Positions 6,990-61,105 of a DNA stretch of 64,000 nucleotides are shown piece after piece (position 1 is the first letter of the stretch; every line of letters starts with the position of its first letter). The notes beneath the pieces are model-generated. The model searched no databases, was not told where the DNA came from, and worked only from the letters and a program-made list of their open reading frames with translations. The position numbers were made by a program, and so were the translations under genes. Origin of the DNA: Membranipora membranacea. Lineage: Eukaryota; Bryozoa; Gymnolaemata; Cheilostomatida; Membraniporidae. Where the stretch lies: contig OU612069.1 of assembly GCA_914767715.1 (NCBI GenBank), positions 6,138,001 through 6,202,000 of the forward strand, in the 5' to 3' direction.

Positions 6990-7072
6990 TTATGTATGTG
7001 TGACAGTCCACTTATAATACTCAGCAGATTGGACTACACGCCCCCCTCGTTTTATCTCTCTGACTTCTTTCT
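6990..7072 (-). CDS. Terminal exon, basic tail and stop
   Basis: An 83-nt exon after a polypyrimidine acceptor (TTTTTTTCTACTTGTAG). In the phase supplied by the previous exon it reads EKEVREIKRGGRVVQSAEYY and a short end, then TAA. No domain. Alternative: the transcript could end by read-through of the previous donor. Confidence 0.6.
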
Positions 7073-10000
7073 CTACAAGTAGAAAAAAATCTGATAACAA
7101 CAGATAGAGATTATTAAATTAGCAGATCAATTCTACTGACAGCATTCAGGATTATTTTGGATATAATTATATACATTATGAAGTTATCGTCAGATGCCCT
7201 GCTCATCCATAATAATATCTTTAACTTGCCTCATTTATAGTACTAGTACAGGAGTCAAAAATACAGTATCATATAAGCATCCAAATAAGAGGAGTGAGCT
7301 TACCTAGAAGTGGTTCAATCCTAGTAACCACCTGGTTTGCCACATTCGCAAACATCTCAGGTGAGTTCTGAATTTGGACTCCAGGTAGCAGATACAGTTT
7401 TCTCAGATTAGTGAATGTGCAGACAGTTTTAGGCATCTGAGAGACATAAGAGGCAGCAGTGGGAGCTGCAGCAGCACCTCTGTTCAGGTTCTGATCTGTT
7501 CTCTCCACTCCATATCTTGTCACTGATTCTCTTACCTGCAATTTTGATGGTTGAAAATGGTAATGCATCAGCTGTAAGAGTTTGAATGACTTCATGATTG
7601 GTTAAATGATTTCAGAGAGTGTAAGGTTGAATTATGTTTATGAAATATTAGAGGTGAGAATGACTCCGATCAAGAGATTTACTTCAATTGATGCATCAGT
7701 AGTTTAGAGTAAGTTGGGTTAGTCAGTTGCATTTATAGGCACTTAACCGTTTGTGTCCATGAAGAAATATCTCAATATAACAAGGAACTTATGCAAGACT
7801 TACTATTTCAGCCAGAGATACAACATCATGCCTATGTCCCAGGGTGTATAAGGTCGCCACCAAAGCCCTGATGAAGGGTGATCCAACGCCAGGGTTCCTT
7901 GGTGCAGCAAAAGCTACAATAGAAATTACTCTATGATACATAACAAATCCATTGACCCATTAATACCTAAGGTGGCTGTAGTTCTGCTGTAATTTTATTA
8001 TGGAAGAATTCTTGAAATAATCTTCAAATGATAATACGAGGGATAGTCCCCTCTAGTGCGATGGAATCATGACTGTACTGTACTGACTGTACTGTACAAC
8101 CCCAAACAACTGCCACTTCTAAACTTATATTGCTGTTTAAGCTGAATTTTTCTGCTGTTGAATACTCACAATCAAAGCTGGACTGCATAATGATCATATC
8201 TGATACAGATATGTCTTGTGTATCATTGTCCACTTCAAAGTCATTAGAACTCGGCATTGTCACAACTTGAGTGCTGCTATCAGTTTGGGGAGCTCTAACA
8301 GCTGCTGTTCCAGTAGTGAGGTCGTCTCTCAACATTTCCCGATTACCTTTTTGAAAAAACGCGGATATGATCATCAGCTGCAAGACTTAGTAGATATGCT
8401 ATAAGCCTGTACTGTATTGTATCAATTTCTTGATTTTATAAGCTAACTGTCTTGTTGTTTATGTCCTTTCAGTTTCAACTTCAGACATAATGTTATAAGC
8501 TACATTCTACTTAAAAACAAAATCTGGTGTTGCTGCCTGATATTATTTCTCATTCAAGTTTAACAATACTTACTGCCAGCACATGCTTGTATGATCACAA
8601 TCTTTGGTCGGCCTCTCATCACCGAGAAGTTCTTAGGAGAGAGTAGATTGTAAATATCCGTTAGTCTGATGAAGACTCTGTCAGAGCCAATAATACAGCC
8701 CTCGTCTCCATGACTGGTCAGAACGAGTACAAACGCCCCCATATGCTTGTGTACTGATTGACCGACTGGATCTGTTAACTGTGTCTCGTAGTGTATGGCT
8801 TCGATGATTTCCTAGTAAAAAAAAACTTACGTAAGTCCTCCATAAAAGGTTAAGTTTCTCAAATTATTGACTGAGATAGTTTACTGCATTGATGTCATAG
8901 AGCAATTACCCTGGAGCGTGGTCTGATATTGTCAAGGAGGGATGATTCTAAAGCCTGGTCATTCGTCACAATCAATCGTACATGTAAACAATTCACAGAT
9001 TGTAAATGTTCAGCTTACCCTTGCAGTGTAGGTTTTGTGTTCACCTACAGTAACAAACCCTAGTTTGTCAAGCATACACTTGATATTCTGATAGTCATGT
9101 TCAGAACCACTCCTAGTCTGGTTGTAGTCGTTAGAGACAATCAGAGCACGTCCTCGGCATTCTGTCATCTGGTAAACAGTCTGAAAATAATCAGAAAATG
9201 AAGCCTTGATGATATTTGAACTATTTTGTTGCCTCATAAGCTTTTAGATCTGAGAATTGTACCAAGGAACTTCCGAACCACAGCTGTAATTATTCACTTC
9301 ATAGACACAGCCTTCTAAGTTTGTGTGAAGACATGAAAATATCGATCAAAATCATAACAAAGTAGCAGCTTTATAAACCTGGCTTTCAGGGATTAAACTC
9401 TGATCTGCTTGTTGTGGTTCCATATCTATCTGGGGTTGCCTTCTTTTCATGATCTCCACTACATCCTGAACTTCGGACATCTGGATCTCTGGTATGCTCT
9501 GGCCAGGATCATCTGCTGTGAGAACAGGAGGAGGGTCAGGTTTCACATAGTGCTTATTAGAATTTGAATTTTCTCTGCCTGTTTTCTTTTTACCGTAGAA
9601 ACCAAGTTTCGCATGATTAATTCAGTAAAAGAGAGCTGTTGACTGACCTGATCCCGCAGTTGTCTCCTCCCTTCTTATGTAGTCATCAAGAATTCTGACT
9701 CCCTCCTCACTGATCTTAAGACCTGTTTGATACAACAGCAAAAATGGCAAGGTTAGCACCCCTATTGAAACAATCACTTGGTTAACATGCAATCCCGAAA
9801 GTTAATGCTACAAATGGTAACAAATGAATTAATCGGATCTGCTGAGGCAGATAATGATATTTTTCCATGAACTTACATGGATATCTGAGAGGTAGCGGGA
9901 CACGCCTCCTCCCATCGTTGGTGTCACATGGACAAGTCTCCTCTCCAGTGTAGGTGGTATGACGGGGCTCTGGCAGTTTGTATCTGACACGCCTGTTGAA

Positions 10001-11798
10001 CCACTCAGGATTGACAAATGTTGCTGGTGATGACTGTTTGGTCAGTAGGCAATGAGAGCAGTAGAAGACATGGTCATATCGAACTCCTTTCCACACAGAA
10101 TCCAATTCAGATGTAAGCCGCTTCATTGTTTCTAGTTGGGTCTTCCAAGCATCGCTGATAAGCCTGGCCGGTGTTTGCGTGATGAGTGTCACTTGTTTTT
10201 CCTTCTCATTATGCAATAGATACCGCAAGACTCCGTTCATCTCTTGCACACTCGCTCCATTTATACCAGCTTCAGGTGTGTTGAATGGATTGACGCATAT
10301 GTCTAGAAATCTTGCAGTGATTACATGATATACATATTGCGGAACGTTGAGGCCGTTCAGATACAGATCGACTCTCAGCTGAAGGTGATTTGTGCCTTCT
10401 GTTGGGTTTGGTATGTTCTTAGTGCTGAAGTAGGGAACGATGAACTTCTCACTGCCATCACTTTCTATAGGTCCACAGATCAGGTGAAATGTTTTCAGCA
10501 GCGTGATACCAACATCAACAGGTAGTTCCGATTCATTGCTGAGCAGATTGTGAAGTAATGCAGCTCTTATGATTCCTGTGGCTTTGAAATCATTGACCAT
10601 GCTGACATACTCTCTTCTGTCCACAGGTCTTTCCTTATATCTGTAGGGTCTAAATTTGGTTATGCGATGTTCCCATGCTTGAGCATCTGCATGATCGTAA
10701 AGTGTCCTTATGACATCAGCAAGAACTGAAGGGCGATGGAATAAATAGTCACTCAGCTTCTCAACGTCCTGAAACCACATTATTCTTCCTGCTTCTTTGA
10801 CGTACTGCAAAGCATGCTCACTGTGCTTACTGAAACCTTGTATGAAGTCAGTAACAGAAACATAAGGCTTTTGCTCTTCAGCAGTAAGCTTATTCAGCAC
10901 TTCATACCAACTACCGGGTATATCAGTGATCAGCTTAGCCCCTGCTTCCTTCAGTGCACTCTTTAGTGATTTGATATCCATCTTGCTCGATGAAGCCGAG
11001 AGCTCTAGTATTGTTGTGATCAGGGGCTGTGCTCTGTCGATGAAACATGTCATAGAGAAAAATGAGCTGTCAGGCATAGCAACACCCTCTTCTGATTGAA
11101 TTACATCTAAACGCAGCTTCTCTGTTGCTGATAAAAGCTGTTTCTTCCTCAGTTTGAGGGTCTCATTGCTAAGCAAATCACCATGAGTCAGTACGAGCAC
11201 TGGTCTTCCTAGGTTTGGTTGTGATGTATATAGGTGCGCTATCCACTGGAAGCATACATCCTGAGCTGCAGCCTCTACTCCATGCGCATGTACTAAACTG
11301 TCAAACTCTGCTATATCTACCACTAGAAGTGGTACAGATTGTACTTTGGCGTTCACTTGATAGGCAAGGTGATACACCTCATGCCCTCCCAAATCAGTGA
11401 ATACCAACTTCAATTTCTCATCAATGTCAGCCTCGCATACATTGAAGACACGTGTTGCCTCATCAAGCTTGATGTCGATATCGGAACGGGTTGTCAGCAC
11501 ACGCTGATCCTTCTGTACGCTCCTCACAATGCTTGTCTTTCCTGCTTTAGTCTTGCCTATGACTGTTACCGGAATGAGTCTGAAAATGTTATCTTTTTCA
11601 GCATGAAGATCATGCAGATACTTCCTTACAGCTTCTATACCCTGTATGCAGACAGCATAGGGAGGAGATACTAGTGCTTCGCAGTTGTAACATCCGAAGT
11701 TCTTTAGCGTGCTGATATTGAAGATACTTTCAGGTATAGAGGAGAGTGACCCGTTTCCTCTAATATCAAGTACTTTCAGTTTGGTGAGTTGCCCCAGG
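6990..11798 (-). CDS. LRR-ROC-COR-caspase protein, C-terminal nine exons
   Basis: Nine minus-strand exons, in transcript order, are 11798-9877, 9722-9648, 9578-9379, 9180-9019, 8811-8574, 8346-8170, 7913-7804, 7535-7304 and 7072-6990. All introns are GT-AG and the phases (1, 1, 0, 0, 1, 1, 0, 1) agree at every junction. The total is 3199 nt, giving about 1065 residues ending in TAA. Domains in order: terminal LRR, ROC GTPase, COR, a tail with paired cysteines, an acidic Pro/Gln linker, caspase p20, a variable linker, caspase p10 and a short basic tail. ROCO proteins are GTPases that dimerise through COR. Caspases are Asp-specific cysteine proteases activated by proximity. The fusion suggests an LRR-sensed, GTP-regulated protease, by analogy with sensor proteins of innate immunity. 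That role is inferred. The N-terminus is not in these exons. Two upstream LRR exons fit the same frame. Confidence 0.85.
7304..7535 (-). CDS. Exon: caspase p10, C-terminal part
   Basis: A 232-nt exon, phase 0 in and 1 out. VRESVTRYGVER continues the p10 helix. A poly-Ala loop follows, then SQMPKTVCTFTNLRKLYLLP, which matches the last beta strands of caspase small subunits (P-x-x-x-x-T-L-x-K-x-LxF). About 25 extra residues come after the usual end. Donor is CTAG|GTAAGC. Reading through that donor would stop about 10 codons later. Confidence 0.82.
7804..7913 (-). CDS. Exon: caspase p10 core with S1-pocket Arg
   Basis: A 110-nt exon, phase 1 in and 0 out. It encodes FAAPRNPGVGSPFIRALVAT, then TLGHRHDVVSLAEI. 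This is the small-subunit signature: a W-R-N-like element, here P-R-N, with the S1-pocket arginine (codon 7897-7899), then GS-x-FI-xx-L. The acceptor is TTCTATTGTAG and the donor ATA|GTAAGT. This exon is too short for a simple open-frame scan to detect and was found by following phase. Confidence 0.85.
8170..8346 (-). CDS. Exon: linker between p20 and p10, start of p10
   Basis: A 177-nt exon, phase 1-1. The first two thirds is a low-complexity Thr/Ser/Asp-rich linker with several candidate Asp cleavage points (for example NDFEVDNDTQD). It ends in VSDMIIMQSSFD, the beginning of the small subunit, where ordinary caspases have an ADxLxxxST strand. Auto-cleavage in this linker is the usual activation step in the family. 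Whether it happens here is not known. Confidence 0.8.
8574..8811 (-). CDS. Exon: caspase p20 with catalytic His and Cys
   Basis: A 238-nt exon, phase 0 in and 1 out, about 79 residues. FVLVLTSHGDEG contains the catalytic His (codon 8710-8712) in the family's SHG motif. IVIIQACAG contains the catalytic Cys (codon 8581-8583) in the QACxG pentapeptide. The usual QACRG Arg is Ala here. Spacing between His and Cys is normal for caspases. The donor lies just after QACAG. The acceptor is a pure T-run followed by ACTAG. Confidence 0.9.
9019..9180 (-). CDS. Exon: caspase p20, N-terminal part
   Basis: A 162-nt, phase 0-0 exon of 54 residues. It carries the first beta strand of the caspase fold, ECRGRALIVSNDYN. 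The Arg of the RG pair (codon 9154-9156) is the conserved p20 S1-pocket arginine. GSEHDYQNIKCMLDKLGF then matches the usual GS-x-D-xx-xL-xxLGF helix. It has a strong acceptor (TTATTTTCAG) and donor (AGG|GTAAGC). Confidence 0.88.
9379..9578 (-). CDS. Exon: Pro/Gln-rich linker before the caspase
   Basis: A 200-nt exon, phase 1 in and 0 out. It encodes a flexible, acidic and Gln/Pro-rich segment (VKPDPPPVLTADDPG, later QPQIDMEPQQADQSLIPESQ). Several Asp residues could be cleaved by a caspase. The donor (CAG|GTTTAT) is weak but gives the phase the next exon needs. Its place matches the prodomain-to-p20 linker of ordinary caspases. Confidence 0.65.
9648..9722 (-). CDS. Exon: helical linker after COR
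   Basis: A 75-nt exon, phase 1 in and 1 out, between acceptor ATCAAACAG and donor GATCAG|GTCAGT. It completes a cysteine codon with the previous exon and encodes LKISEEGVRILDDYIRREE and a short tail, probably helical. No domain is recognised. It is supported by splice sites and frame only. Confidence 0.65.
9877..11798 (-). CDS. Exon: terminal LRR, ROC GTPase and COR domains
   Basis: A 1922-nt exon, phase 2 in (acceptor ...TTTAAACAG) and phase 1 out (donor CCAT|GTAAGT). It opens with an LRR (LGQLTKLKVLDIRGN, then LSSIPESIFN) and the cap segment before the GTPase. ROC motifs: P-loop GKTKAGKTS at 11531-11557, switch-II DLGGHE at 11378-11395, and a base-recognition THGD at 11177-11188 in place of the TKxD/NKxD of Ras. 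The COR domain follows, spanning roughly 10.4-11.0 kb (FSKHSEHALQYV, IMWFQDVEKLSDYLFHRPSV). The last ~90 residues hold YCSHC and CPCD cysteine clusters. The Lys and Thr of the P-loop are present, so nucleotide binding looks intact. An ATG 56 bases upstream of the exon in the same open frame lies in the intron and is not a likely start. Confidence 0.88.
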
Positions 11799-11959: not shown

Positions 11960-12560
11960 AAAATGGCGCAGTCATTGCAGCCTCGCCCTCAAGGCACACA
12001 CTATTTCGCCGCCACGGTGTGTTGAGTGACTAACCCTTGTGATTTTAACCAACATTTTTAAAGCCAACTAATGACTTACTACTAAATTGTGAGTTTGTTA
12101 CTTGCAACAGGGCCAAATGATATCCAGCATCACAACACCCGCTATCCCAGCAAATTAAAAAAAAAGTTTACTTTTATTTATTTTTCAATGTAATGCAATG
12201 TAATGTAGAATAATAAGTCATTCTTTCGTTTGTTATTTATCACTTCTGTTGTGACAGCTCATCCCCACCCTATTAATTTGATCAAAATTGTAGCGCTGAT
12301 TGTTTTTCATCCTTTTGCTAATATGCTAATCAATTTCAACCTAAGACCACCTCCAGTATGCAGTAAATTTATTACTTTGTGAGGCCTTACGTTGCATTCT
12401 AGGCTTTTGGGGTCGGGGTTACTCCCTGAACCCTGAATCGGGGGTGTGAATGGGGGGGGGGGGGGGCTTACAGCGCTTCTCCCAAAGCTGAGATTAATTG
12501 ATATTACTGTGCTGCACAGGATAGTCTACGATGGTGGCAGGTTCACATTCAAAAGCTAGA
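11960..12560. repeat. Beta-type duplication fragment with 15-G run
   Basis: Sequence near 12.08-12.13 kb (TTGCAACAGGGCCAA) and near 12.39-12.58 kb matches segments at about 19.63-20.0, 31.0-31.46 and 57.09-57.6 kb. A run of 15 G lies at 12452-12466, just before a CTTACAGCGC block shared by the copies. The other copies have shorter G runs. No coding sequence. Confidence 0.6.
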
Positions 12561-21100: not shown

Positions 21101-23519
21101 AATTTATCCTTTTGACATTTTTTCAACTGAAAACCGGATCGGTCTCAATTATTGATGCAAGTTTCATGACTGTTAACTTAGAAAGACACATAGGACTTGG
21201 TAAAAGTGAGGGTTTGATGCTATCTATAGACGAATACAGGTTCTCCCTTGTGATTTTTGCCAAAGAAATTTGTTATTATTTCAATTACCAAATTATAGAG
21301 TCACTTTGTTGTTTTTATAAATACAGAATTTTCAAGGGGGAGATGTGGAGTGGAGGTCAACATGAATAGTTTCCTGAATTGATATTGAAAACAATATTAT
21401 TGTTCTATGGTTATTAGAGTAATGTACGGCCTTGGGTTAGAAAATGTGTCGTTCCCTTATTTAAGCCTGCAGGACAAGAATAATAATACCATTTTTAGGA
21501 GCACGATCGTTGGAATTTGTAAGAACTCAATTTCTATTTCAGCAATATGTTGGTGTAGACTTGTGATACAGATAGTGGTGTGAACTTGATATGTGCTGCC
21601 CAAAATAATATTAATATAATTGTTATTTTTATTTATCGTGATATTCATTGTTTATTTGAGCCAATTGTTACATATTAAATACAATTATTTTCAGCTACAT
21701 AGATTATGAGCCTGCCTGCCAGCATGTCTGAAAATCAACAAACCTGATCAGGTGGTAACAACTGTGAGAATATTTAATTTCCTTTTTTTACTTTAGAGAA
21801 ATAAACTCCTTTAGCTCATACAATCGAGAAAGTGTTGTCTCGTATCTGACAGTGCATTTTACAATGAGAAATAGAGCTGTATTGAAACCTTCAGCAGGTA
21901 CTGATTTTGTATTTGATCACTCACTCACTGCAGCTGATGGAATTCCAAACTATCCACCTGTGTCCATGCGTTCTGTGCCCATCTGTTGGACACTGTTGGC
22001 GGGACAACCTGTAATGGACAGGTGTGGGCTGACGGGCAATGTTTTAATGGATGGACAGTTTTTTGCTGAATGGATAGACAAAACGGCATGGCCTATTTTT
22101 TCAGCTCCATCAACCTCTTCCGACTGGCGCTAAATAAAATTACTTATTTTTGGATTGATCAATTTAGCAAACCATCTGGGAAAGAGGTGTCTGTTGTGTA
22201 ATGCCCCTATACCAGGAGCTTGTTACATTTTTTTTATAGACACAGAGGGGCAACAAAAAATTACATAGTATACCACCTGTATTATTGGACCTTATGGGAA
22301 AAGACCTAAATAGACCTAGATGAACATGCATGCAATGGCTGGTTCATGCCACAAACTTAAAATTAAAAAACCGATCATTGCATCCTCATACTAACTATAG
22401 ATGTACTTCTTGTGTCACACTCATTGAGAGGATAATAGAGGAATGATTGACAATAACAGCAGATACTCATATTGATATGTCATAGGTCTGATCAGTTTAA
22501 ACATTCCTCCATCTCTAGTCAACATTTTGTGAAGCTCACTTCTTTTTGCAATCATTGATTACAGTTTCATATTTGTTGCGAATGCAACGTCAATCGAACC
22601 AGATCACAATATATTGAAGCAGTCTTTTAGAAACAGTTCTTTTGATTTGGTCAATCACGTATTTTCTCTTGACATACTCATTCGAGAACAAAATACTGTA
22701 GCCTGTCTAGCAATCCTGTATAAGGAGGGCAAGTTGTGATACTGTTGAGATTATTTGAATACTAAATGCATAAAAATGACAAAAAGAGAAGGCAATGTTA
22801 ATCATAAAATGTCCAGTTATGTCTATTCTCTTTACATGAGAGCTCCAATTCAGAGTCAATCAATGAAACTTAATAGATGATCAATTTTGAATTGTGTGCG
22901 TGATAAGTATTGCTAATATTGTTAAATTGTTAATAGTTGATCGTAATATAATTGCATATGTATGTGCTTTCAATTTCCTTACGCCTAATTAAATTGATGA
23001 TGCGACAACTAAATTATTTGCACTTAAAACCGGAGTTCCCAATTTAAGTTTTCCTCAAAGGAAAGTTATTGTAATGGGGTCAGACCAATGTTTTCCTGAC
23101 CTCTTTTAGCGTCGCTGTAGGGAAGCGCATCTCGGATAATCAGAGGTACTACTGTTGCAAGCATCTGACTCACATGTTTGTTTCAGATATTCATCGGTAT
23201 TTCTAGTGATGTAAGTTACGTGATTCAGATGTGAAACTCAATCTATAATTGCTTACAAAAAATATAGACTTAATATGTAAATATAAATGTTTAATAAATC
23301 TTGTTTTCTAGTGATGCATGCTCTGCGATTTAATTTATCAATCCATAGTGACTTTTTACTCCATCCATAAAAAATTTGGAATAATCACTAGCCTTAGCTT
23401 CTGACTGGTATGATTTTCATGCATTGATACTCAATGCGTCAAAGACAGATGTTATGACAGTGTCATATTTTGATTTTGAGTTGATTTTCTGTAACTAATT
23501 TTTTAGGGCATGTTTTCCT

Positions 23520-23680
23520 AAAACTTTCTGATAAACTTAAATATTTAGGAGTAATTTTAGATAACAATATGAGGTTTAAATCCAATGTCAATTAGATTGA
23601 ACAAAACCTAACCAAGTCATAGCAAACTTTAAGAGAAATAACCAAACGCAGAGGGAACAAACTAATTGTACAAAATGTCT
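23520..23680 (+). pseudogene. LINE ORF2 tail relic, clearest block
   Basis: One frame reads KYLGVILDNNMRFKSNVN before a stop, a good match to the post-RT block of CR1/L2-like LINE ORF2. It lies only about 30 bp from LRR exon A and is read on the opposite strand. The matching piece near LRR exon B (60.29-60.44 kb) is similarly placed. Confidence 0.55.
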
Positions 23681-23711
23681 GATATACTACTGTTTCAAGC
23701 ATCTGACTCAC

Positions 23712-23852
23712 CTGTCCGGAAGGCCAGTTAATCCACAGTAAATTGCATTTAGACTCTTCAATGATTGAATTTCCCCCAATCCTGCAGGTAATGTCTGTAG
23801 ATCCTTATTCCAACTAACATTTAACGACTCCAGTCTTGGCAGATTGCAGATG
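23712..23852 (-). CDS. LRR exon A, two leucine-rich repeats, phase 2-2
   Basis: A 141-nt exon between acceptor TTATTCACCACAG and donor GGACAG|GTGAGT. It encodes two LRRs of 24 and 23 residues: ICNLPRLESLNVSWNK, then LQTLPAGLGEIQSLKSLN, ending LTGLPD. Phase 2 at both ends is exactly what the ROC exon at 11798 accepts, and the junction gives LPDSLGQLTKLKVLDI, a seamless LRR. It lies 11.9 kb upstream on the same strand. It is most likely part of the ROCO-caspase transcript. A decayed separate gene is the alternative. It resides in a beta duplication copy. Confidence 0.75.
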
Positions 23853-26086
23853 CTGTGGTGAATAAATAACAGAATGTTAAAATGCCTTGCAGTACTGCTT
23901 GTTAGTTGATGGAGCAAAGACAATTGAGCAAACGAGTTAGACCTATCACATTTAGATTTTGCTGTCTGAATAAATTTGGGTTTCCTTTTAATGCAAGTAT
24001 CGGAGGAGATAATAGTAACCATAACTCAATTGAATTGCAATCTGACGTTTCAGATATGAATAAGTATTTATATTCAGTGAATTATACTTCTCAGTCCGAA
24101 TATGACCCTTAGGAGTTGTCTTTCCTAATTATTGTTAAATTTCCTACATCAAAATTACGCTCTCTCGTTCACAATTTGACCTGTGTTGACCTTAGAGTTT
24201 ATTAACATGATTGTTTAGGGTGTACAGTGTTCATCAATCAATTCTTCAACTGGTTTATTATCACGAACAAAAAGGACAATAGTTATGTCTCTCAAATAAT
24301 CACTATTGGTTGGAAGTGAACGCTTACTTTTTGCACTAAATACTAAGTCCATCCGGCAGACATATAATAACAGGAATTATGCAAACTGATAAAAAATTTT
24401 GTTATGATCAATCAAAAATTAAATGTCTCCAAATATCAGAATCTTTACACACATACAAGGTTATGCATGTACACAGTATTATTCCAATCTCAAAGCGCCA
24501 AGCAGAACAATCAATCCCGTCAACTTTGTTAAATAACTTTAACCCTATCACTAGCAAGATGGCAATAAAGAATTGCTGCCAGTGCAAGCAGTTAGACACA
24601 CGCTTGAATTACTTTTCACAGTCCAAATACAACGCTAGTGGCTCTGAATCAACCCACTTTATGCGTTATGTGTTCACAATTTTTATGAGTCAATGATAAC
24701 CACCAAACAATTGTAAAAGATTTTAATCTTAAGATACACACAAGAATTGCTGAAACCTGGCACTATCAAATTTCAAACAAGGATTAAGTGAGGACACAAT
24801 GTCTGTATTATTGAAGTTTGTCGAAGATTGTTGAAGATTATTGAAGTTTACTGGGGATGTTTCAAAAATTAATCACTGTCTCCAAAGCAAAATATTTTGG
24901 AATCGGTTGGGCAGTGCGATTGATTTTGGCAACATGAATTTGTCACTTTCAATCCCAAACACCCTTCCTCTAAGAAGCCCAAATAGTAGTAGTATTGTTA
25001 ATATGAAGACATTTATTACTCTGTATAATAGCTCAGTTTTTTCGTCACGATTTGATTATTATTAAGTAAACACCAGAGAAGGCATGAGGGATTTCACAGC
25101 TTAATTTGACCTTAATTTAGCATAGATTCATCATAATGGAATAACCAATAGCTTCTCAGCCATCAACAGCTTGAAGTCAATACGATTAGTTGGGAATCCA
25201 GAAGAAATCACAGTTTGAAAGGTATTAACTATGGTATCTACTGCCATGAGGATGTTGTTCACTGTTTGCTTGATTGTAGTGATGCTACACTGAGAGCAAG
25301 TGGTATCAGAGGCTGCATCCGTTGCCTATGATACTATTCAAAATTATATTGCGTTAGCCTTAGATTTAAGCCATCTTTTTATGAGCCCAATGCCACTAAT
25401 CATATTGTGTATGCCTACATGTAAAGAGAAGAGCACTGCATAGTAAGTCATTTGATTGTAGGACTAAACAGAGGGACATTGCGACAACGCAACCCAACGC
25501 AATTATGGGATTATGTTGACTAAATCTTTTCACCAAACACTAGCTAAAGCACCTGTGTAAAAAATTTTAATTAGCCACACAATTACACATTATATTATGA
25601 AAAGCAACACATGATAACACTCTCTGAGAAGAATGCTGTGTTAAATTGTAATTGCTAGCTGCGTTAAAATTTGTCCAGCTCCAATCATAAATCCCTAGGG
25701 ACAGTGTTGAGACCTATACATGTTTTGGTAACCTTCATATCATGATAGGTTCAAAGCAATTCAGTAATAATAGATCAGATTCTTGCAAAAATCTGTAATC
25801 AACAAGTAACCCATGTCTGCATATTTGACAAGCCTAGAGCCCAGCAGAAGCCTAACAACCGTTATCTCAGACACTTTTAATTTTCGTCAAATTTTAGGTG
25901 ACACCCAAATAACTGGCGAAACTACTCCAGGTATACAATTTGTCAATGGTCAAGTGTCCGTGAATTCTATCTTGTAGGGCAAAAATCCTGTCTTATTGGA
26001 TACTCCTGAGACAGGATCTAGACTAGTTCCCTTTAAATCAGTCAGCCAATAAAGAAAAATGGTTGACTACTAAACAAAATGGTTGG

Positions 26087-48700: not shown

Positions 48701-49696
48701 GTGATCACATTAACCCCCTTCATGTGTACTGACATGCCTTAGCTAAAATAATGAATAAATCTGCCGGTCCCTGTTTTAGAATCCCAATAATTCTCTGTCA
48801 TGTGGAGGTAATTGTATCATTGTATTATGCTGAGTGTGAGGCCTCTGTACAATTCAATTCTTTTCATTGTTTCAACTTATGGTAAACAAAAGAATCCTTT
48901 AAACGCTGTGCCTGATTCTTTTCAATAGAGAATAAATGTAGCATGTCAGCTTGCATCCAAAGTTTATATGAGTAAACTGAGAATAAATGTTAAGAAATGC
49001 TGCATTAAATGAAGGGAAAATACGATAGAGTGACCCTAAAAGATTTATCTATTCGCAACGTCACAACGAGGTCAGACAAAAAATTTGACGCTTCTAGCTT
49101 TTTTAGAAGTGCAATTTAATTGAGTCATCTGGTTAATAAAAGATAATGTTTTGCCAACATTTCATCATGTTTTATGAAATTCATGATTTTTTGCATTCAT
49201 TTTGTGGATTAAATAGTAATTAAACCACCAAGCCTGGACAATAACTTTCAATCATTTTGTGATGGTTTCTGCATCAAATTTAAAAAAATGTAGGGGAAGA
49301 TAAAAAGGAAACCATATAAGTCACTGAGAAGCAGATATAACATCAAGTTGATAACAAGATGCTGCTGTTTGTTAAGTAATTTCGAAATCCGATTAAAATT
49401 GATTGGGTTATGAACACAAAACCTGAATTGTTAACAGTAAACCAATGATAATATCATTGCTTACTACACCTTCCAATGACGTTGAGTCGCCCACAATTGA
49501 GTGCCTTACTTCAGCTATATGTAGTGTCATGTCTAGGTTTATAATTAAGACTATGGGTGCAATTGATTATGTTACAAAAATTAATAGAAATTTGTTATCA
49601 TATTTAAATTGTTGTGCGTGACATCGTGCTGACAAGCTGCTTGTGAAAATTTCTCTCTCTCTTGATTAAAAATTGTAAATAATCACTGGATATCAT

Positions 49697-51211
49697 ATGG
49701 AAGACAGTGCTTTAAATTCTAAAAAGCGGAAGCGAGATGACCAAGATGACGATCAGCAAGAAAACAAAAAAGAAATGCCGTATTATTTAAACAAACTCAG
49801 AGCACTTCAAAAAAAGCTGGACTCAACAACTCAAGACAACAGCATCGAAATCAAAGGTACTCTTGACAACATTCAAATCGTACTGGTGTGCAATTCTGCA
49901 ACATACGAGGTTGTCAAAGCTAACTTCCAGTCCTCGTTAAAAGAGCAAGGACTTTACACCTCTTTACAGACCAACAGGGATCAAACAAAAACAACTGTAG
50001 TCGCTGTAGTGGTCACAGTTAAAACCAAGAAGAAAGGAAAAAAATCTTTATACACTACGAACTTTTATAATACAACATCTACCATACTTGTCAATGGTAT
50101 TAAGGACAAAGATATTTTCCTTGACCACTACACTAAACTTATCAACGACATTCCTGAACATACTATAAATGCATTGAATGCCACCATTCAACAGAAATGT
50201 AAAGAATTCATTACATCCGAGCAAGGCATGAATGCGGCAGAAGTTCAACTACCAAGTCTGGAAAACGGCTACACGTCCAATCAAAGCTCCAGCACATCAG
50301 TTGCCATGGAAAGCACCAGCTCTCACAATGATCAAAGAACATCAGACAACACATGTGAATCATGCAGCAATATCCAAAGCCTCATCAGCGTCATGATGAG
50401 CAAAATCTCGGAGCTAGAAAAAAAAGTTAATCAACAAAGCACTTTAATACAGAAACTTGTTGACCAACAACCAATAACCGATCAAATACAACATCAATTC
50501 GACCAACTTGAAACCAGCATCAACAAACATCTAACAAGTAAATTGGAATGCGATTCAAATTCCTCACCACGTGAAAAAGTTTCTCCCAACAATCAGACAG
50601 CATCAGCACAACACTGGGCTAACTATAATCATCAGCAACTTAATCTGCCATCAACTTCCTCAACGAACAACAACAATCGAACCAGCATGAGAACACAACC
50701 CCCAAAAGAACAAAAAATAGACAACAGTTTCCGCCCTATAGACAATCTTGTCATAGATATTAAGAAGGACTCCATGACCTACAGCAACTTTAACCAAGAT
50801 ACCATCAGACGCACCCTCAACAAAACCTTTGGGCCAATCATAATAGAAAAGGTTACCAGATATAACTTCAATACAAACAAACCCAAAATTATGATACAGT
50901 TCAACCACCAAGAAACAAGAAACAACATCCTACGCAAATGGAACACTGATCTATTTGGTGGATCAAGTATACGCCAAACAATCGACCCGAGGTCCCTGAC
51001 AGAAAATATGGGTATGTTGAAAGGTGTCCCACTAGATGCTGAGGACAGCACTGTAATAAATGATATAAAAGTGCTCTACCCTCATGCTACGTCAGAAAGA
51101 ATTTTTAAGGAGGGCAAACCAATGAGAATGTTCAAAATTAAGTTCCATTCTCATGATGATTTTCTTTTTTCTATTAAAAATGGCATTTGTCTCCAATCAC
51201 AAAGTGTTTAA
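49697..51211 (+). CDS. LINE ORF1 protein
   Basis: A complete 504-residue frame. The N-terminus is very basic (SKKRKRDDQDDD). An alpha/beta region around residues 55-160 includes LYTTNFYNTTSTILVNG, a motif style common in CR1/L2 and related ORF1 proteins. A Ser/Thr-rich spacer follows, with a coiled coil near residues 230-265 (ISELEKKVNQQSTLIQKLVD). The C-terminal ~150 residues have an RRM-like pattern (KIMIQFNHQETRNNILRKW). It is expected to bind LINE RNA and act as a nucleic-acid chaperone. It ends 23 bp before ORF2, in another frame. No stops, so this copy is young or the frame was preserved. Confidence 0.85.
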   Translation: MEDSALNSKKRKRDDQDDDQQENKKEMPYYLNKLRALQKKLDSTTQDNSIEIKGTLDNIQIVLVCNSATYEVVKANFQSSLKEQGLYTSLQTNRDQTKTTVVAVVVTVKTKKKGKKSLYTTNFYNTTSTILVNGIKDKDIFLDHYTKLINDIPEHTINALNATIQQKCKEFITSEQGMNAAEVQLPSLENGYTSNQSSSTSVAMESTSSHNDQRTSDNTCESCSNIQSLISVMMSKISELEKKVNQQSTLIQKLVDQQPITDQIQHQFDQLETSINKHLTSKLECDSNSSPREKVSPNNQTASAQHWANYNHQQLNLPSTSSTNNNNRTSMRTQPPKEQKIDNSFRPIDNLVIDIKKDSMTYSNFNQDTIRRTLNKTFGPIIIEKVTRYNFNTNKPKIMIQFNHQETRNNILRKWNTDLFGGSSIRQTIDPRSLTENMGMLKGVPLDAEDSTVINDIKVLYPHATSERIFKEGKPMRMFKIKFHSHDDFLFSIKNGICLQSQSV

Positions 51212-51234
51212 TGTCAATTTGAGCAAATGAGATA

Positions 51235-52011
51235 ATGAATTCTGAATTTGCATTTTTGAATGTCCGTGGAATCACCAGCAAAATAGAGGAGATAAAATCA
51301 ATTTTGCATCAACGTAAATTCGCGATTCTAGGATTAGCAGAAACATTTTTGAATGAGCATGATGGTGTTGGTATTTATGCGGTGCCAGGTTATCAGGTGA
51401 TTAGGAGAGATCGGGGATATGGTTACGGTGGTGGTCTCATTGTCTACATACATGAATCCGTGCAATTCGAACATCTTGCAGATTTTGACAATAGCATGCC
51501 TGAGTCTATAACTATCAAAGTAAAGCCAAGTACAAATAAAAGTTGTTTAGTCTCATTTATATACAGACCTCCCAACTCCAAGTCCGCATGGTATGATCTT
51601 GCTTACGAATACTTTGAAAAAGCTTTTTCACTGTATAATGAAATTATTATACTTGGAGATTTTAACATCAACATCCTTGAACAAATAAGCAACAGAAAGT
51701 GGTTGAATATTGTTAAATCTTTTTCCTTCCGTCAATTGATCTCGGAGCCAACAAGAGTTACAGAAACATCCAGCACCCTGATCGATCACATATACACAAA
51801 TCTGCCCTCAGATATGTCAGAGAGTGGAATTATAAAATATGGAATGAGTGATCATTACTTAGTTTTCATTAAAATTTTATTTTCCGCATTAAAGGTAAAA
51901 GCAAAAAGAACATCATTTGAATTCAATGACTATTCCAAATTTACAAACCAGAATATACGTGACCTTTTTCAGGTCGTCACTTTAAGGATGTATTGTGTGA
52001 GAATACTGTAG
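51235..52011 (+). pseudogene. LINE ORF2, AP-endonuclease part (frameshifted)
   Basis: Begins ATGAATTCTGAATTTGC and encodes the APE-type nuclease that nicks target DNA: NVRG, GLAETFL (catalytic Glu), YRPPNS, ILGDFNI (Asp/Asn) and SDHYLV (Asp/His pair). All key residues are present. The frame is lost in a T5 run near 51965-51969, after which the RT frame continues in another phase. A single-base change explains this. Confidence 0.88.
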
Positions 52012-53384
52012 ACCGTATGTATACAAGATTTAATGACACCTATAGTTCATTAATCAAAACACTTGTCATCACCAAGAAAAGATTTGTAAAAACTGCTCAA
52101 CTGCCCAAATGGTTAGATGATGAGGTAAAATCACACATGCATTTGCGTGATAGATTGAAGAGAGAGGGCAAATGGGAAGAATACAAAATTCAACGCAATT
52201 ATGTTACAAATTTGATTAAGAAGAAAAAAAAATCGGTTATTTCAGATATAATTAAAAATAACAAAAATAACACCAAACCTGTTTGGGAAGCTTTAGGAAT
52301 CAATCAAACTAAAATTTCACCGATGGTCAATATTGGTGGTTTATCCCCTGATGAATTGAACAGACACTTTACATCGATTGCAAAATCCATAACCAAAGAC
52401 ATCCCTGATTCCCATGAATATAACATGATTAGACCAGTGACAACCCAAACGTTTTCTCAATTGACTCGCTTTACTCCAGAAATTTGTTTCAAATACTTAA
52501 AAAACATTTCTGACAATAAAGCAACTGGTCATGATGGTATATCTGTTAAGGTTTTGAAGAAAACATGGCCTTACATATGCGACATTGTAACTGACATGTT
52601 CAATAGAGCATTAATAGAGGGTGTATTTCCTTCACAGTGGAAAACCGCAAGAGTAATTCCTATTCATAAGGGTGGAGATATCAAAGATCCATCTAATTAT
52701 CGCCCTATATCAATACTTCCTGTGCTATCTAAGATTTTTGAGAAACATGTGAATTCCCAAATTCAAAAATATCTCACCACAAACAAACTTCTTCACAAAT
52801 TACAATGCGGATTTAGAGAAGGTTATTCCTGTGTTGATTCCCTACACAAACTCATTTCTGACTGTTTGTCAGCCAGATCAGATGGTCACTTTGTTGCTAT
52901 GATGTTTTTGGATTTCAAAAAAGCTTTTGACTGCGTCAACCATAAAATTCTTCTGAAAAAATTGACAATGTATGGTATAACGGGCAAACTGCACTCTCTC
53001 ATAAAATCTTTCCTAACAGATAGGACACAATTTGTAGCTATACAACAAGGTGCAAAAAGTTCAAAAATTCTTCCAATAGACATTGGTGTCCCCCAAGGCT
53101 CAATTCTGGCACCAAGTTTATTCCTCATATACGTCAATGATCTTTTATCCTACACATTACATTCCAAGGCATTTGCCTACGCTGATGATACAGTTTTCGT
53201 ATCAAAATCTGACAACTTTGATACACTTAATGATTTATGTGATACTGATCTACACTTGATAGAAAGTTGGTGTAGGAATAATAGGATGTTGATAAACATA
53301 AAAAAATCTCACTATATGCTTGTACAACCCTCTCATAGAGCCACATCTCTAGATTTAGATCTAAAAATTAACCATAAAAACTAA
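51993..53384 (+). pseudogene. LINE ORF2, reverse transcriptase part
   Basis: The frame reads back through 51.97 kb and covers the RT: DNKATGHDGIS, WKTARVIPIHKGGD, NYRPISILPVLSKIFEK, LDFKKAFDCVNH (first catalytic Asp), GVPQGSILAPSLF and the catalytic AYADDT. The palm residues are intact. It stops at 53384 just after a run of A's. The downstream C-terminal part continues in a different frame. Confidence 0.9.
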
Positions 53385-53989
53385 ACCGAAATGCCAATAC
53401 CAAACTCCTTGGTTTTACTTTGAATGACTCATTGACATGGGACGATCATGTAGACCAGATTTGCATCAAAATAAACAAAAGTTTGGCATTATTCCAGAAA
53501 TGCAGGGCATTCCTAGATAGTAAATCATCTCGTAACTTTTATTTCCAGTATGTCTTTTGTCATATGATATATGGCATCCGCATATATGGCAACCTATCAC
53601 CACAATATATTCTTGAAAGAATATACTTGCTCCAAAAGAGGGCTTTCCGCCTAATAGCAAATGTCAGCCACATACCATATCATCTAATACATACAAGAGA
53701 TTTACATACATCTCTTGGTCTGATTCCTTTTCCTCTCCTTGCTGGTCATTTCACCTGTATTTTTGGTTTCCAAATTTTGCATTTGATTGCACCTGACTTT
53801 CTTTTGGAAGGCTTTATTCCAGCTAGCTCTAAAACCTTTTTTAGAGACAGATACCTATTACATTATCACACTGATCAATTAAGACAAAAAATCACTACAA
53901 CTTTTAACTCTTTACCAATTCAGATACGCTCAGCAACCAAACTCACTCATTTTAAACAACAACTATCAAAGCACTTGATATCCTATTAA
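53375..53989 (+). pseudogene. LINE ORF2, C-terminal part
   Basis: From the second frameshift (near the AAAAAC at 53376-53382) the frame reads TKLLGFTLNDSLTWDDHVDQ, the usual post-RT block of CR1/L2-like LINEs. It then runs to LTHFKQQLSKHLISY and a stop. Its entry lies in another phase from the RT frame. The apparent TTG start at 53420 is not a true start. Confidence 0.85.
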
Positions 53990-57274: not shown

Positions 57275-60200
57275 TTATTCTTTTTTTCAGTTATCGCTTT
57301 TGTTGTGACAGCTCATGCCAGCCCAACTAATTGTTGATTGTTTTATTCATTTGATAATTTTCTAATCAAGTTTTACCTAAAGACCCAGTTAATTTATTAA
57401 TTTGTAAGGCCCCGTTGGAGGGGAGGGGGCGGGGGCCTACAGTGCCTCGGTCAAACCATAAAAGCTTTATCTCTTTAACCCAAGAGGGTATGTGGTGATC
57501 CACTGCGCTGCACAGGATAGTGAATGATGACTGGATCACATATGAAAGCTGAAAATCCCTCCTGATTAGGAAGCCCTAACCTGAGCAACCCTGATTATCA
57601 CCATAAACATCATTTTAAATGATTTAGAGTTAGATATGTTTATAATCTTAGCAATCTTAGAAGTTGGGCCCATATTCTCTTAAAAATTAGCAATTGATAG
57701 ATCATTGAACTTAGAAAGTTCTAAGTTGAGTTCCTTGTTGGAAAGGATGTCAAATAACTCTATTTCAGTAAAAAAGGTTTTCGTACATGGTAGCAATCGG
57801 CTACATTTTAGTAATTGCTACAGGATAATACACCCTAGGCATCGTACTTTTGAACTCAATATAACTTTATGGTATTGGAAATCTCAGATTATCTTAATCT
57901 TTACCAGAAAGTGATGATGTAATGGAGTCATTTGCACAATAATCATGTTATTGATGTTCCTAAACTGATTTGGCAGATCAAGCAATATTCATCAGGCTGG
58001 TCTACGTTGCCAAACAGAGCAGCACCAACCTTTCTTGCACTAATTAACAACAGTCCAAGGCTGTGAATATCATCCAAAAACTCTATTGATGTGATCACTG
58101 CTGGCCTGATTCATACCTGGGGTGTATTGCTATGTAGGTGAATTGAGATTTTCAATCAAAAAATATTTCTTGCCAACGTAATTGTGATAATTATAATTAC
58201 CAATAATTATAGATTCACTTAGGTTTTTTATAAACACAGGATTTTTAAGCGGTAGATGTGGAGCGAAAGTCATCACAAATATTTTCCTGAATTAATATCA
58301 AAAAATATATTATTGTGATAAAATTATGATTATTAATGTACTGTACAGCTATTGGTGAGAAACTGTGTCGTTTGCTTTTTTGAGCCTGCGTGACATGAAT
58401 AAGTACCATTTTTAACAGCATGGTAAGAGCGTTTGAATTTGTAAGAACAGAATTCCCAATTTGGCAATATGTGGGCGTAGACTTGTGATACAGATAGTAG
58501 TTTGAACTTGATCTGTGCTGCCCAAAATTACTCATTATTATTATGATTTATTATGATATTCATTGTTCTTTTGAGCCAATTGTTACATATTTAATGAAAT
58601 TACTTTCAGTTACATAGACTATGAGCCGGCCTGCCAGCATGTCCGACAATCAACAAAACTAATCAGGTGGTAACGACTGTGACAGTAATTAATTTCCCTT
58701 TTTGCTTGTGGTATATACTTTCGAGAAATAAACTGCTTTAGTTCTACAAATTAAGAAAGTATAGCCTCACATCTGACTGTGCATCGATACAATGGTAAAT
58801 TGTTGATTTTTATTTTTGAACACCCACCAGAGGTGTGCGGCTGATGGGATTCCAAACTGTCCACCTGTTTCAATGTGTCTTTTGCCCATCTGTCGGACAC
58901 ATTTGATGGGACAAGCTGTACTGAAAAAGCATAAGCAGATGGAAAATTTGTTTCAATGGACAGACAGTTTTAGCTGGACGGTTAGTCCAAATTGAATGGC
59001 CAATTTTTTCAGCTCAATGACCTCCTCCCACTTGCTCTAAATGGAATTGCATTGGCGGCAAAGCCTTTTTTGACTGATCAATTTAAAGAGCCACCTGGGA
59101 AAGAGGTATGTGTTGGGTATACCATGGATTTGACTGGTTCATGCCACAAAGTTAAAATTAAAAAACCATTCAATTCATCCTTATATTAACTAATATGGCA
59201 CTTATATGTACTTCTTGTGACACGCCTATTAAGAAAATAATAGGGGAATGAGTGACAAAACCACAGACTGATCAGTTTAAACATTCCTCCATCTCTAGCC
59301 CACATTTTGTGAAGCTCACATCTTTTTGCAATCATTGATTTAAGTTTCATATATTGCCAATACAACGTCAATCGAACCAAGTCACAATTTATTGAAGCAG
59401 TCTTTTAGAAACCAGTCTTTGATTTGGTCAAAACTAATTTCTTATAGTGACATAGACATATGAGAACAAACTACTGAAGCCTGTCTAGCAATCCTGTATA
59501 AGGAGAGCAAGTTGTGATACTGTTGAGATATTTGAATACTAGATGCATAAAAATGACAAAAAGAGAGGGTAATGTTAATTTTAAAATGTCCAGTTATGTC
59601 TTTTCTCTTTACATGAGAGCTCCAATTCAGTGTTGATCAATGAAACTCAATATATGACAAATTTTGGATTGTGTGCATGATAAATATTGCTAATATTGTT
59701 AAATTGTTAATATTGAATCGTAATATAATTGCATATGTATGGGCTTTCATTTTCCTTGCGCCTATTTGAAGCGATGATGCACTAACTAAAATTATTTGCA
59801 TTCAAAACCGGAGTTCCCTATTTTAAGTTTTCCTCAAAGGAAAGTTGGTGTAATGGGGTCAGACCAATGTTGTCCCGACCACTTTTAGCGTCGCTATAGG
59901 GAAGAGCATCTCGCTTACTCAAAGGTACAACTGTTGCAAGCATCTGACTCACATGTTTGTTCCAGATATTAATAGGTATTTCTAGTGATGCAAGTTACGT
60001 GACTTGGATGTGAAACTCAATTCATAATTGCTGACTAAAAATAAAGACTTAATATGTAAATATACATAATTAATCAAACTTGTTTTCTAGTGATGCATGT
60101 TATGTGATTCAATTCATCAATTCATAGTGACATTTCACTGCACCCATAAATAATGTGGAATATTGACTAGCCTTAGCTCCTGACTGGTATAATTGTGAAG

Positions 60201-60490
60201 CATTGATACTCGATGCATCAAAGACAGATGTTATGACAGTCTCCTATTTTGATTACGAGTTGATTTTCTCTAACTAATTTTTCAGGGCATGTTGTCCTCA
60301 AACATTCTGACAAATTTAAATATTTAGGAGTAATTATAAATAAAAATATGAGTTTTAAATCCCATGTCAATGAGATTAAACTAAACCAAACCCAGTCATA
60401 GCAAACTTTAAGATAAATCACCATACTTACAGGGCAGAAACTAATTGTACTAAAACTCTGATATACTACAGTTGCAAGCATCTGACTCAC

Positions 60491-60631
60491 CTGTCTGGAA
60501 GGCTGGTCAAGCCACAGCCACTCGCATCTATTATCTTCAATGATTGAATTTCCCCCAATCCTGCAGGTAATGTCTGTAGACCCCTATTCAGACTAACATC
60601 TAACGACTCCAGTCCTGGCAGTGTGCAGATG
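60491..60631 (-). CDS. LRR exon B, paralogue of LRR exon A
   Basis: A 141-nt exon, phase 2-2, with acceptor TTATCCACCACAG and donor AGACAG|GTGAGT. It encodes ICTLPGLESLDVSLNR, then LQTLPAGLGEIQSLKIID, ending LTSLPD. It matches LRR exon A at 35 of 47 residues. Flanking intron sequence is also homologous, so exon and introns were copied together. It could splice to exon A (36.6-kb intron) or directly to the ROC exon without changing frame. Confidence 0.72.
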
Positions 60632-61105
60632 CTGTGGTGGATAAATAGCAGAATGTTAAAATAGCATGCAATACTGCTTGTCAGTTGATGGAGCAAACAC
60701 AATTGAGCAATGCATTCTATTAATAGGAGAAAGTTTCAGATTGATCAATTAACCATGTAAGTTGTAACTATCAGATATAGATGTTAGATGATTAAATGTA
60801 TGTATTTTTAATCCCATGTCAAAGAGATCAAATGAATCCTAACTCAATCATAGCAAACATTGAGAGAAAACGTAAGTTTTTGAATGAAACCTTAGCTGCA
60901 GTCGTGTACACAAGGTAAATAAAGATTGAATATAACCTTATTGCTCTACTTAATATATCTAAAAAAGTCCAAAGAGTCGATTGCAGATGTTTAAACATCA
61001 TTAATCTAAATTATCTTAAATTTAGACAAGGAAAAAGCATATAAATTTCATCATCAAGCGGTACCATCATTTATACCTTTTAACCGTTTTCAAACTGACT
61101 TGAAT

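Follow-up and report, generated by a model that had tools for sequence, protein, structure and literature searches.

A predicted bryozoan ROCO gene whose product would join leucine-rich repeats, a Roc-COR module and a caspase

Can a single animal gene encode both a ROCO-type GTPase module and a caspase, or are the two read from separate neighbouring genes? The question is raised by the minus strand of a 64,000-nucleotide stretch of Membranipora membranacea DNA (contig OU612069.1, positions 6,138,001 to 6,202,000; hereafter the window, 35.4% GC), where an original prediction had placed leucine-rich repeats (LRRs), Roc, COR and a complete caspase in one polypeptide encoded from 11798 to 6990. 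The phase-consistent exon chain claimed there held up. Nine minus-strand exons (Table 1) form a single open frame of 1,044 codons closed by one stop, the introns between them are all of the GT-AG type and 132-268 bp long, and the intron phases match throughout; the predicted junction 9379/9180 also keeps the frame. One choice concerned the second p10 exon, in which use of acceptor 7571 instead of 7535 would add 12 residues (LMHYHFQPSKLQ) within p10; we preferred 7535 because the Watersipora protein P0035, described below, has nothing at the site of this insert. Judging from the genomic sequence, we are highly confident that a ROCO-family protein with LRRs, Roc-COR and a caspase is the product of one animal gene.

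The profile searches proposed for checking the domains bore out the caspase and Roc and fell short for COR. Pfam Peptidase_C14 matched residues 720-980 over positions 1-227 of its 233 (E 5.8e-28, 98.6 bits, cut-off 21.4) and Roc stood just above its cut-off of 27 (E 3.3e-6, 27.7 bits), whereas COR-A remained under its own (E 9.1e-5, 22.8 bits, cut-off 35.3). The motifs of Roc can be read directly as P-loop GKTKAGKTS, DLGGHE (DxxG) and THGD (THxD), with COR directly after Roc, as is expected of a ROCO protein; in the set A1, Roc was matched by eight of eight members and COR-A by six of eight at E <= 0.01. COR was established through a structure model in which residues ~69-596 match the Roc-COR fold of LRRK2, LRRK1, CtRoco and MbRoco2; the model is of moderate quality (mean pLDDT 65.3) and its end, residues 581-640, is unreliable. 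By sequence, the C-terminal part is a p20-p10 caspase with a His799-Cys842 dyad and a QACxG motif. Alignment to CED-3 assigns Arg734, Gln840 and Arg909, all kept, to positions that we take to be those of the Asp-binding pocket. The caspase matched 157 solved chains, the best 60 of which are animal or ancestral animal caspases (presumably CED-3, caspases 1, 2, 3 and 8, an insect caspase and reconstructed ancestral caspases), with CED-3 at the top (49.7 bits). No kinase, which would follow COR in an LRRK, was matched at E <= 1 in the 1,044 residues, nor was any death-fold domain such as the CARD or DED prodomain of an initiator caspase, the 5' end of the gene lying beyond the window. DAPK1 has an N-terminal kinase, ankyrin repeats and a C-terminal death domain; no death domain was found in the 1,044 residues, the N-terminus again lying beyond the window.

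Table 1. Minus-strand exons of the predicted gene and LRR exons upstream of it (positions in the window).
Feature	Position	Strand	Residues	Content
LRR exon B	60491..60631	-		141 bp, phase 2-2, two LRRs; AG/GT borders
LRR exon A	23712..23852	-		141 bp, phase 2-2, two LRRs
Exon 1	9877..11798	-		last LRRs (1-50), Roc (~70-290), COR (~291-600)
Linker exon 2	9648..9722	-	641-666	
Linker exon 3	9379..9515	-	666-711	without recognised domain
Caspase p20 exon 1	9019..9180	-	712-765	VYQM..RGRALIVSN; S1-pocket Arg734
Caspase p20 exon 2	8574..8811	-	766-845	catalytic His799 (SHGDEG) and Cys842 (QACAG)
p20/p10 interdomain linker exon	8170..8346	-	845-904	several Asp, candidate processing sites
Caspase p10 exon 1	7804..7913	-	904-940	Arg909, GSPFIRAL
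Caspase p10 exon 2	7304..7535	-	941-1018	LRKLYLLPG; alternative acceptor 7571
Last exon	6990..7072	-	1018-1044	stop codon

A search for the same architecture in other animal proteins, as the original prediction had suggested, was successful, and the domain order read in the window recurs in a second protein, although no Watersipora protein near-identical to that of the window was found. P0035, an annotated protein of Watersipora subatra (Watersipora is a cheilostome bryozoan), has 1,219 residues and carries LRR, Peptidase_C14 (1.4e-36) and, at 26.2 bits, a Roc match that narrowly misses the cut-off. It aligns with residues 1-995 of the window protein at 29% identity (E 3e-129); the alignment begins in the last LRRs, passes through Roc-COR and the caspase and reaches LRKLYLLPG in the window and LRKRLYLFPG in P0035. 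A tblastn comparison of P0035 with the window recovered, in order, the Roc-COR exon at 6e-103 and the two p20 exons at 0.010 and 2e-9; the LRR exons were matched weakly, and the p10 and linker exons were unmatched at E <= 1. Both proteins thus have LRR, Roc-COR, linker and caspase co-linear in one chain, and the caspase of P0035 is the nearest found, although P0035 has a longer acidic linker and stands apart from the window on the Roc-COR tree. Since the window caspase scores higher on P0035 (68.0 bits, phmmer) than on CED-3, the best solved caspase, the comparison favours one origin for the two fused caspases. The gene, as predicted from genomic DNA, is real and has at least one co-linear relative. 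P0035 is listed in NCBI/UniRef as 'malignant fibrous histiocytoma-amplified sequence 1 homolog' (MFHAS1), a name that does not mention the caspase, and such proteins can therefore stand in databases as MFHAS1 with the caspase unnoticed.

It could still be argued that there are two genes on this strand, an LRR-Roc-COR gene that stops shortly downstream of its COR exon and, following it, a separate caspase gene. The frame of the first caspase exon does open into the upstream intron with an ATG (stop-to-stop open reading frame, ORF, 9010-9243), p20 has a methionine, Met716, near its beginning, and four of the five annotated Watersipora homologues have no Pfam caspase. However, P0035 is a single annotated protein with both parts, the intron phases agree along the whole chain, and the residues VYQ before Met716 align to caspase in CED-3 and in P0035. 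The linker speaks in the same sense. The donor of exon 1 splits a Cys codon (in the motif PC), a donor position that homologues seem to share, and the first 20 residues of linker exon 2 are similar to those at the same place in P0028 and weakly so in P0034 and P0035; in an ungapped comparison anchored by hand at the PC donor, the score with P0028 was reached in a fraction of 5e-5 of 20,000 shuffles (0.015 for P0034, 0.033 for P0035). We consider the two-gene explanation highly improbable.

The limits proposed for the gene (6990..11798) could be retained for its 3' part and probably not for its 5' part. The exon starting at 11798 begins inside an LRR and holds only the last repeats, and two further LRR exons, A and B, lie upstream. 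They join each other and the exon at 11798 through serine codons split AG/C, in one open frame (LPDS-LGQL where exon A meets the Roc-COR exon). Their protein matches are weak: exon A gave E 0.13-0.22 with P0035 and 0.001 with P0038, and exon B, over its whole length, matched residues 100-146 of P0035 (E 0.054). From these features the gene probably runs upstream past 11798, its 5' end lying beyond the window or being unrecognised in it, and exon B is probably one of its upstream exons, though it may instead be a copy of exon A that is not used. The frames of the two exons, in part read from intron, are 77% identical over 74 residues, and the exons sit in duplicated blocks (22336-23931 and 59131-60710) that are 85% identical. 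P0034 has six consecutive LRR units of exactly 47 residues each, the unit size of the LRR exons in the window. It appears that the LRR part grows through duplication of a symmetrical 141-bp exon encoding a 47-residue double LRR. Repeated LRR exons of equal length, considered a sign of exon shuffling, have been described in LRR-ROCO genes of Ectocarpus, possible immune receptors (PMC4104024, citing Zambounis 2012); in the excerpted description these are 72-nt single-LRR exons and no caspase is mentioned, whereas the exons in the window are 141 bp long and carry two LRRs.

This surrounding DNA bears on another explanation, namely that the gene is decayed or mis-assembled and not expressed, the upstream LRR exons and duplicated blocks being assembly artefacts. 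Self-similar segments longer than 150 bp cover 77% of 12-64 kb and none of 1-12 kb, a retroelement-like sequence lies in the former part, and the gene lacks a visible start. On the other hand, no disabling change is present in the 1,044 codons or in the two LRR exons, and a near-identical Roc-COR (P0001, 99% identical over 53% of the query) exists in a separate record, a contig of 5,122 bases. Decay or mis-assembly is accordingly an improbable explanation.

The original prediction had known of no ROCO protein ending in a metazoan caspase. As put, this was too strong: bacterial proteins with this domain order have been published, as have placozoan ROCO proteins that carry a CARD or death domain, and P0035 was already in NCBI/UniRef. 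What stands is that no report of an animal ROCO ending in a caspase was found in the literature searched, which largely excluded subscription papers, and that none is described in the excerpts available of PMC9334734, PMC7159879, PMC5094078, PMC6321704, PMC6320773, PMC8998645, PMC11480708, PMC13326412, PMC8195603 and PMC4104024; the main text of PMC3499355 contains none of the terms sought. In the literature covered, then, the layout has not been reported for animals, and bacteria provide a precedent for it. In the bacterial LRR-AP-GTPase-COR conflict proteins, the C-terminal slot is taken, according to the text excerpted from PMC8195603, by at least 24 domains, caspase included. The order of domains and the class of effector are those of the window protein, whereas the conflict proteins are prokaryotic and the window caspase is of the animal p20-p10 type. 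The placozoan ROCO proteins that carry CARD or death domains (PMC4104024, in part) share with it a Roc-COR core and a domain of the cell-death type, and P0012 and P0014, presumably animal, are LRR-Roc-COR proteins like it, although with a C-terminal Death domain. These Death or CARD relatives would recruit caspases through the death-fold domain, whereas the window protein carries the protease. LRRK1 and LRRK2 have the LRR-Roc-COR core and the Roc-COR fold in common with the window protein, which differs in having a caspase after COR and no kinase match. MFHAS1 (MASL1), described in the same excerpt of PMC4104024 as LRR plus ROC-COR only, shares LRR-Roc-COR and has given its name to the Watersipora relatives; the caspase is a further C-terminal domain that does not fit this definition. 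Proteins joining TIR with Roc/COR are mentioned for an anemone and Aplysia in excerpts of PMC5094078 and PMC9334734.

Among prokaryotic genomes, at least 580 stretches were matched, 252 of them confirmed as relatives, and the best 80 were kept, a sample skewed towards loci that contain two short peptide patterns. Identity in these 80 was 22-33%, mostly in Roc only, the best segment reaching 33% over residues 1-159. C-termini were scanned in 71 of the 80, beginning 300 codons downstream of the match start and ending at the stop; none had Pfam C14, eight had TIR_2 and one had CHAT. The loci left out were L002, L021, L026, L038, L041, L044, L053, L063 and L069: in eight a short open frame follows the match start (21-411 residues; L063 runs off its contig), and L041 was left out though it could have been kept (621 residues, open at the contig end). 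Viral contigs gave 73 pattern matches, none of them a relative.

What could such a protein do? Because the distant relatives P0012 and P0014 bear a Death domain at the corresponding place, the caspase occupies the position of an adaptor-recruiting domain, and we lean towards an intracellular ROCO-type receptor with a built-in caspase where its relatives carry a Death domain. The death receptors of animals are normally coupled to caspases by death-fold adaptors, and initiator caspases activate by dimerisation. In the receptor that we propose, the LRRs would detect a ligand, or a host protein that has been perturbed, and this would change which nucleotide state Roc is in and whether COR is monomeric or dimeric, by analogy with LRRK2 and CtRoco. 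The C-terminal caspase domains would then be brought together and activated by induced proximity, as in initiator caspases, and the activated caspase would start cell death or an inflammatory-type response. With a protease in the position of the Death domain, no CARD, DED or Death adaptor would be needed. That COR dimerisation would activate the caspase is plausible. In the excerpted text of PMC6320773, the dimer is reported to be the active form of LRRK2, and GTP binding is reported to lead to monomerisation of the C. tepidum Roco (CtRoco).

Several observations weigh against this interpretation. Since GTP is reported to monomerise CtRoco (PMC6320773, same excerpt), the sign of the switch could be either. 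The tie of the gene to LRR exons 12 and 49 kb upstream is one of phase and homology only. The caspase is rarely seen in relatives: a profile search with the exon family returned 32 proteins, of which P0035 alone has a precomputed caspase domain, most others being single-exon fragments, and Pfam C14 is confined to one of the five annotated Watersipora homologues. In P0034 the start of a caspase, before the model ends, is seen only by a profile of the window and P0035 (34.7 bits) and was missed by plain phmmer when the window caspase was the query, and P0036 has no caspase although its Roc-COR is almost that of P0035 (branch 0.048). The Roc-COR tree has 32 rows, in which the window stands with 31 of the 40 fetched proteins (P0009, P0010, P0011, P0013, P0021, P0026, P0037, P0039 and P0040 were left out); on it, the rows bearing a caspase do not form one group and three changes, at least two of them forced, are required; because most rows have an unseen C-terminus, gains and losses of the caspase cannot be counted on it. 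Either the module has sometimes been gained or lost, or the homologue models are incomplete. With the caspase part as query region, none of 7,990 scored candidates reached E <= 1e-3, a result that says little since no caspase was returned at all. Finally, QACAG in place of QACRG, and Pro at two positions where CED-3 has Trp, make the activity and specificity of the predicted caspase less certain.

The last two features, which we judge unusual among caspases, would suit a real fusion in which the caspase is a non-proteolytic scaffold or regulator (cFLIP-like), or cleaves its own receptor or a cytokine-like target, without cell death. Against this, His799, Cys842, Gln840, Arg734 and Arg909 are intact in the window and likewise in P0035, and pseudo-caspases usually lose the catalytic dyad. 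We regard this alternative as unlikely, while giving it some weight beside the death receptor with a working protease.

The family itself indicates how its Roc-COR exon ends. A recognised end motif was present in 24 of the 40 fetched proteins, 21 of them unspliced ORFs. After PC, the next residue is K, E or R in 20 of these 21 and the remaining one stops there; the residues fit read-through of a splice donor of the GTRAG type, also in P0001, the near-copy of the window. As 20 of the 21 ORFs run on as such a donor would read, the Roc-COR exon probably continues into another exon across the family. Homologous Roc-COR exons, 41-54% identical to that of the window, lie on contigs of 2.5-9.6 kb (P0002-P0007 and P0015-P0026), and the sequences suggest a large Roc-COR gene family in the species of the window or its kin.

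More tentatively, and with slightly less than even confidence, we believe that in bryozoans and perhaps their relatives a family of single-chain death receptors may have expanded, each with its caspase attached directly to a dimer switch that the GTPase gates. Duplication of the phase-symmetrical double-LRR exon would provide sensor diversity, and the whole would be an adaptor-free counterpart of the apoptosome or inflammasome built on ROCO and not on NACHT or NB-ARC. A caspase covalently joined to Roc-COR would give animals a counterpart of the bacterial conflict architecture, and with a simple protease read-out one could test directly whether Roc-COR is a dimerisation device, a question open for LRRK2.

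Some minor observations were made besides. P0009 and P0010, on a contig of 2,563,861 bases, are distant Roc-COR-Death relatives without a Pfam LRR match. From 12000 to 64000 the window is a duplication mosaic with 199 self-matches longer than 150 bp (65.4-98.5% identical) that ends at ~12 kb. Within it, at 49679-53989 on the plus strand, lie frames judged by eye to resemble those of a retroelement of the long interspersed nuclear element type (ORF1-like, endonuclease-like and reverse-transcriptase-like), and the intron that precedes the Roc-COR exon contains 15 consecutive C, read on the minus strand (12452-12466).
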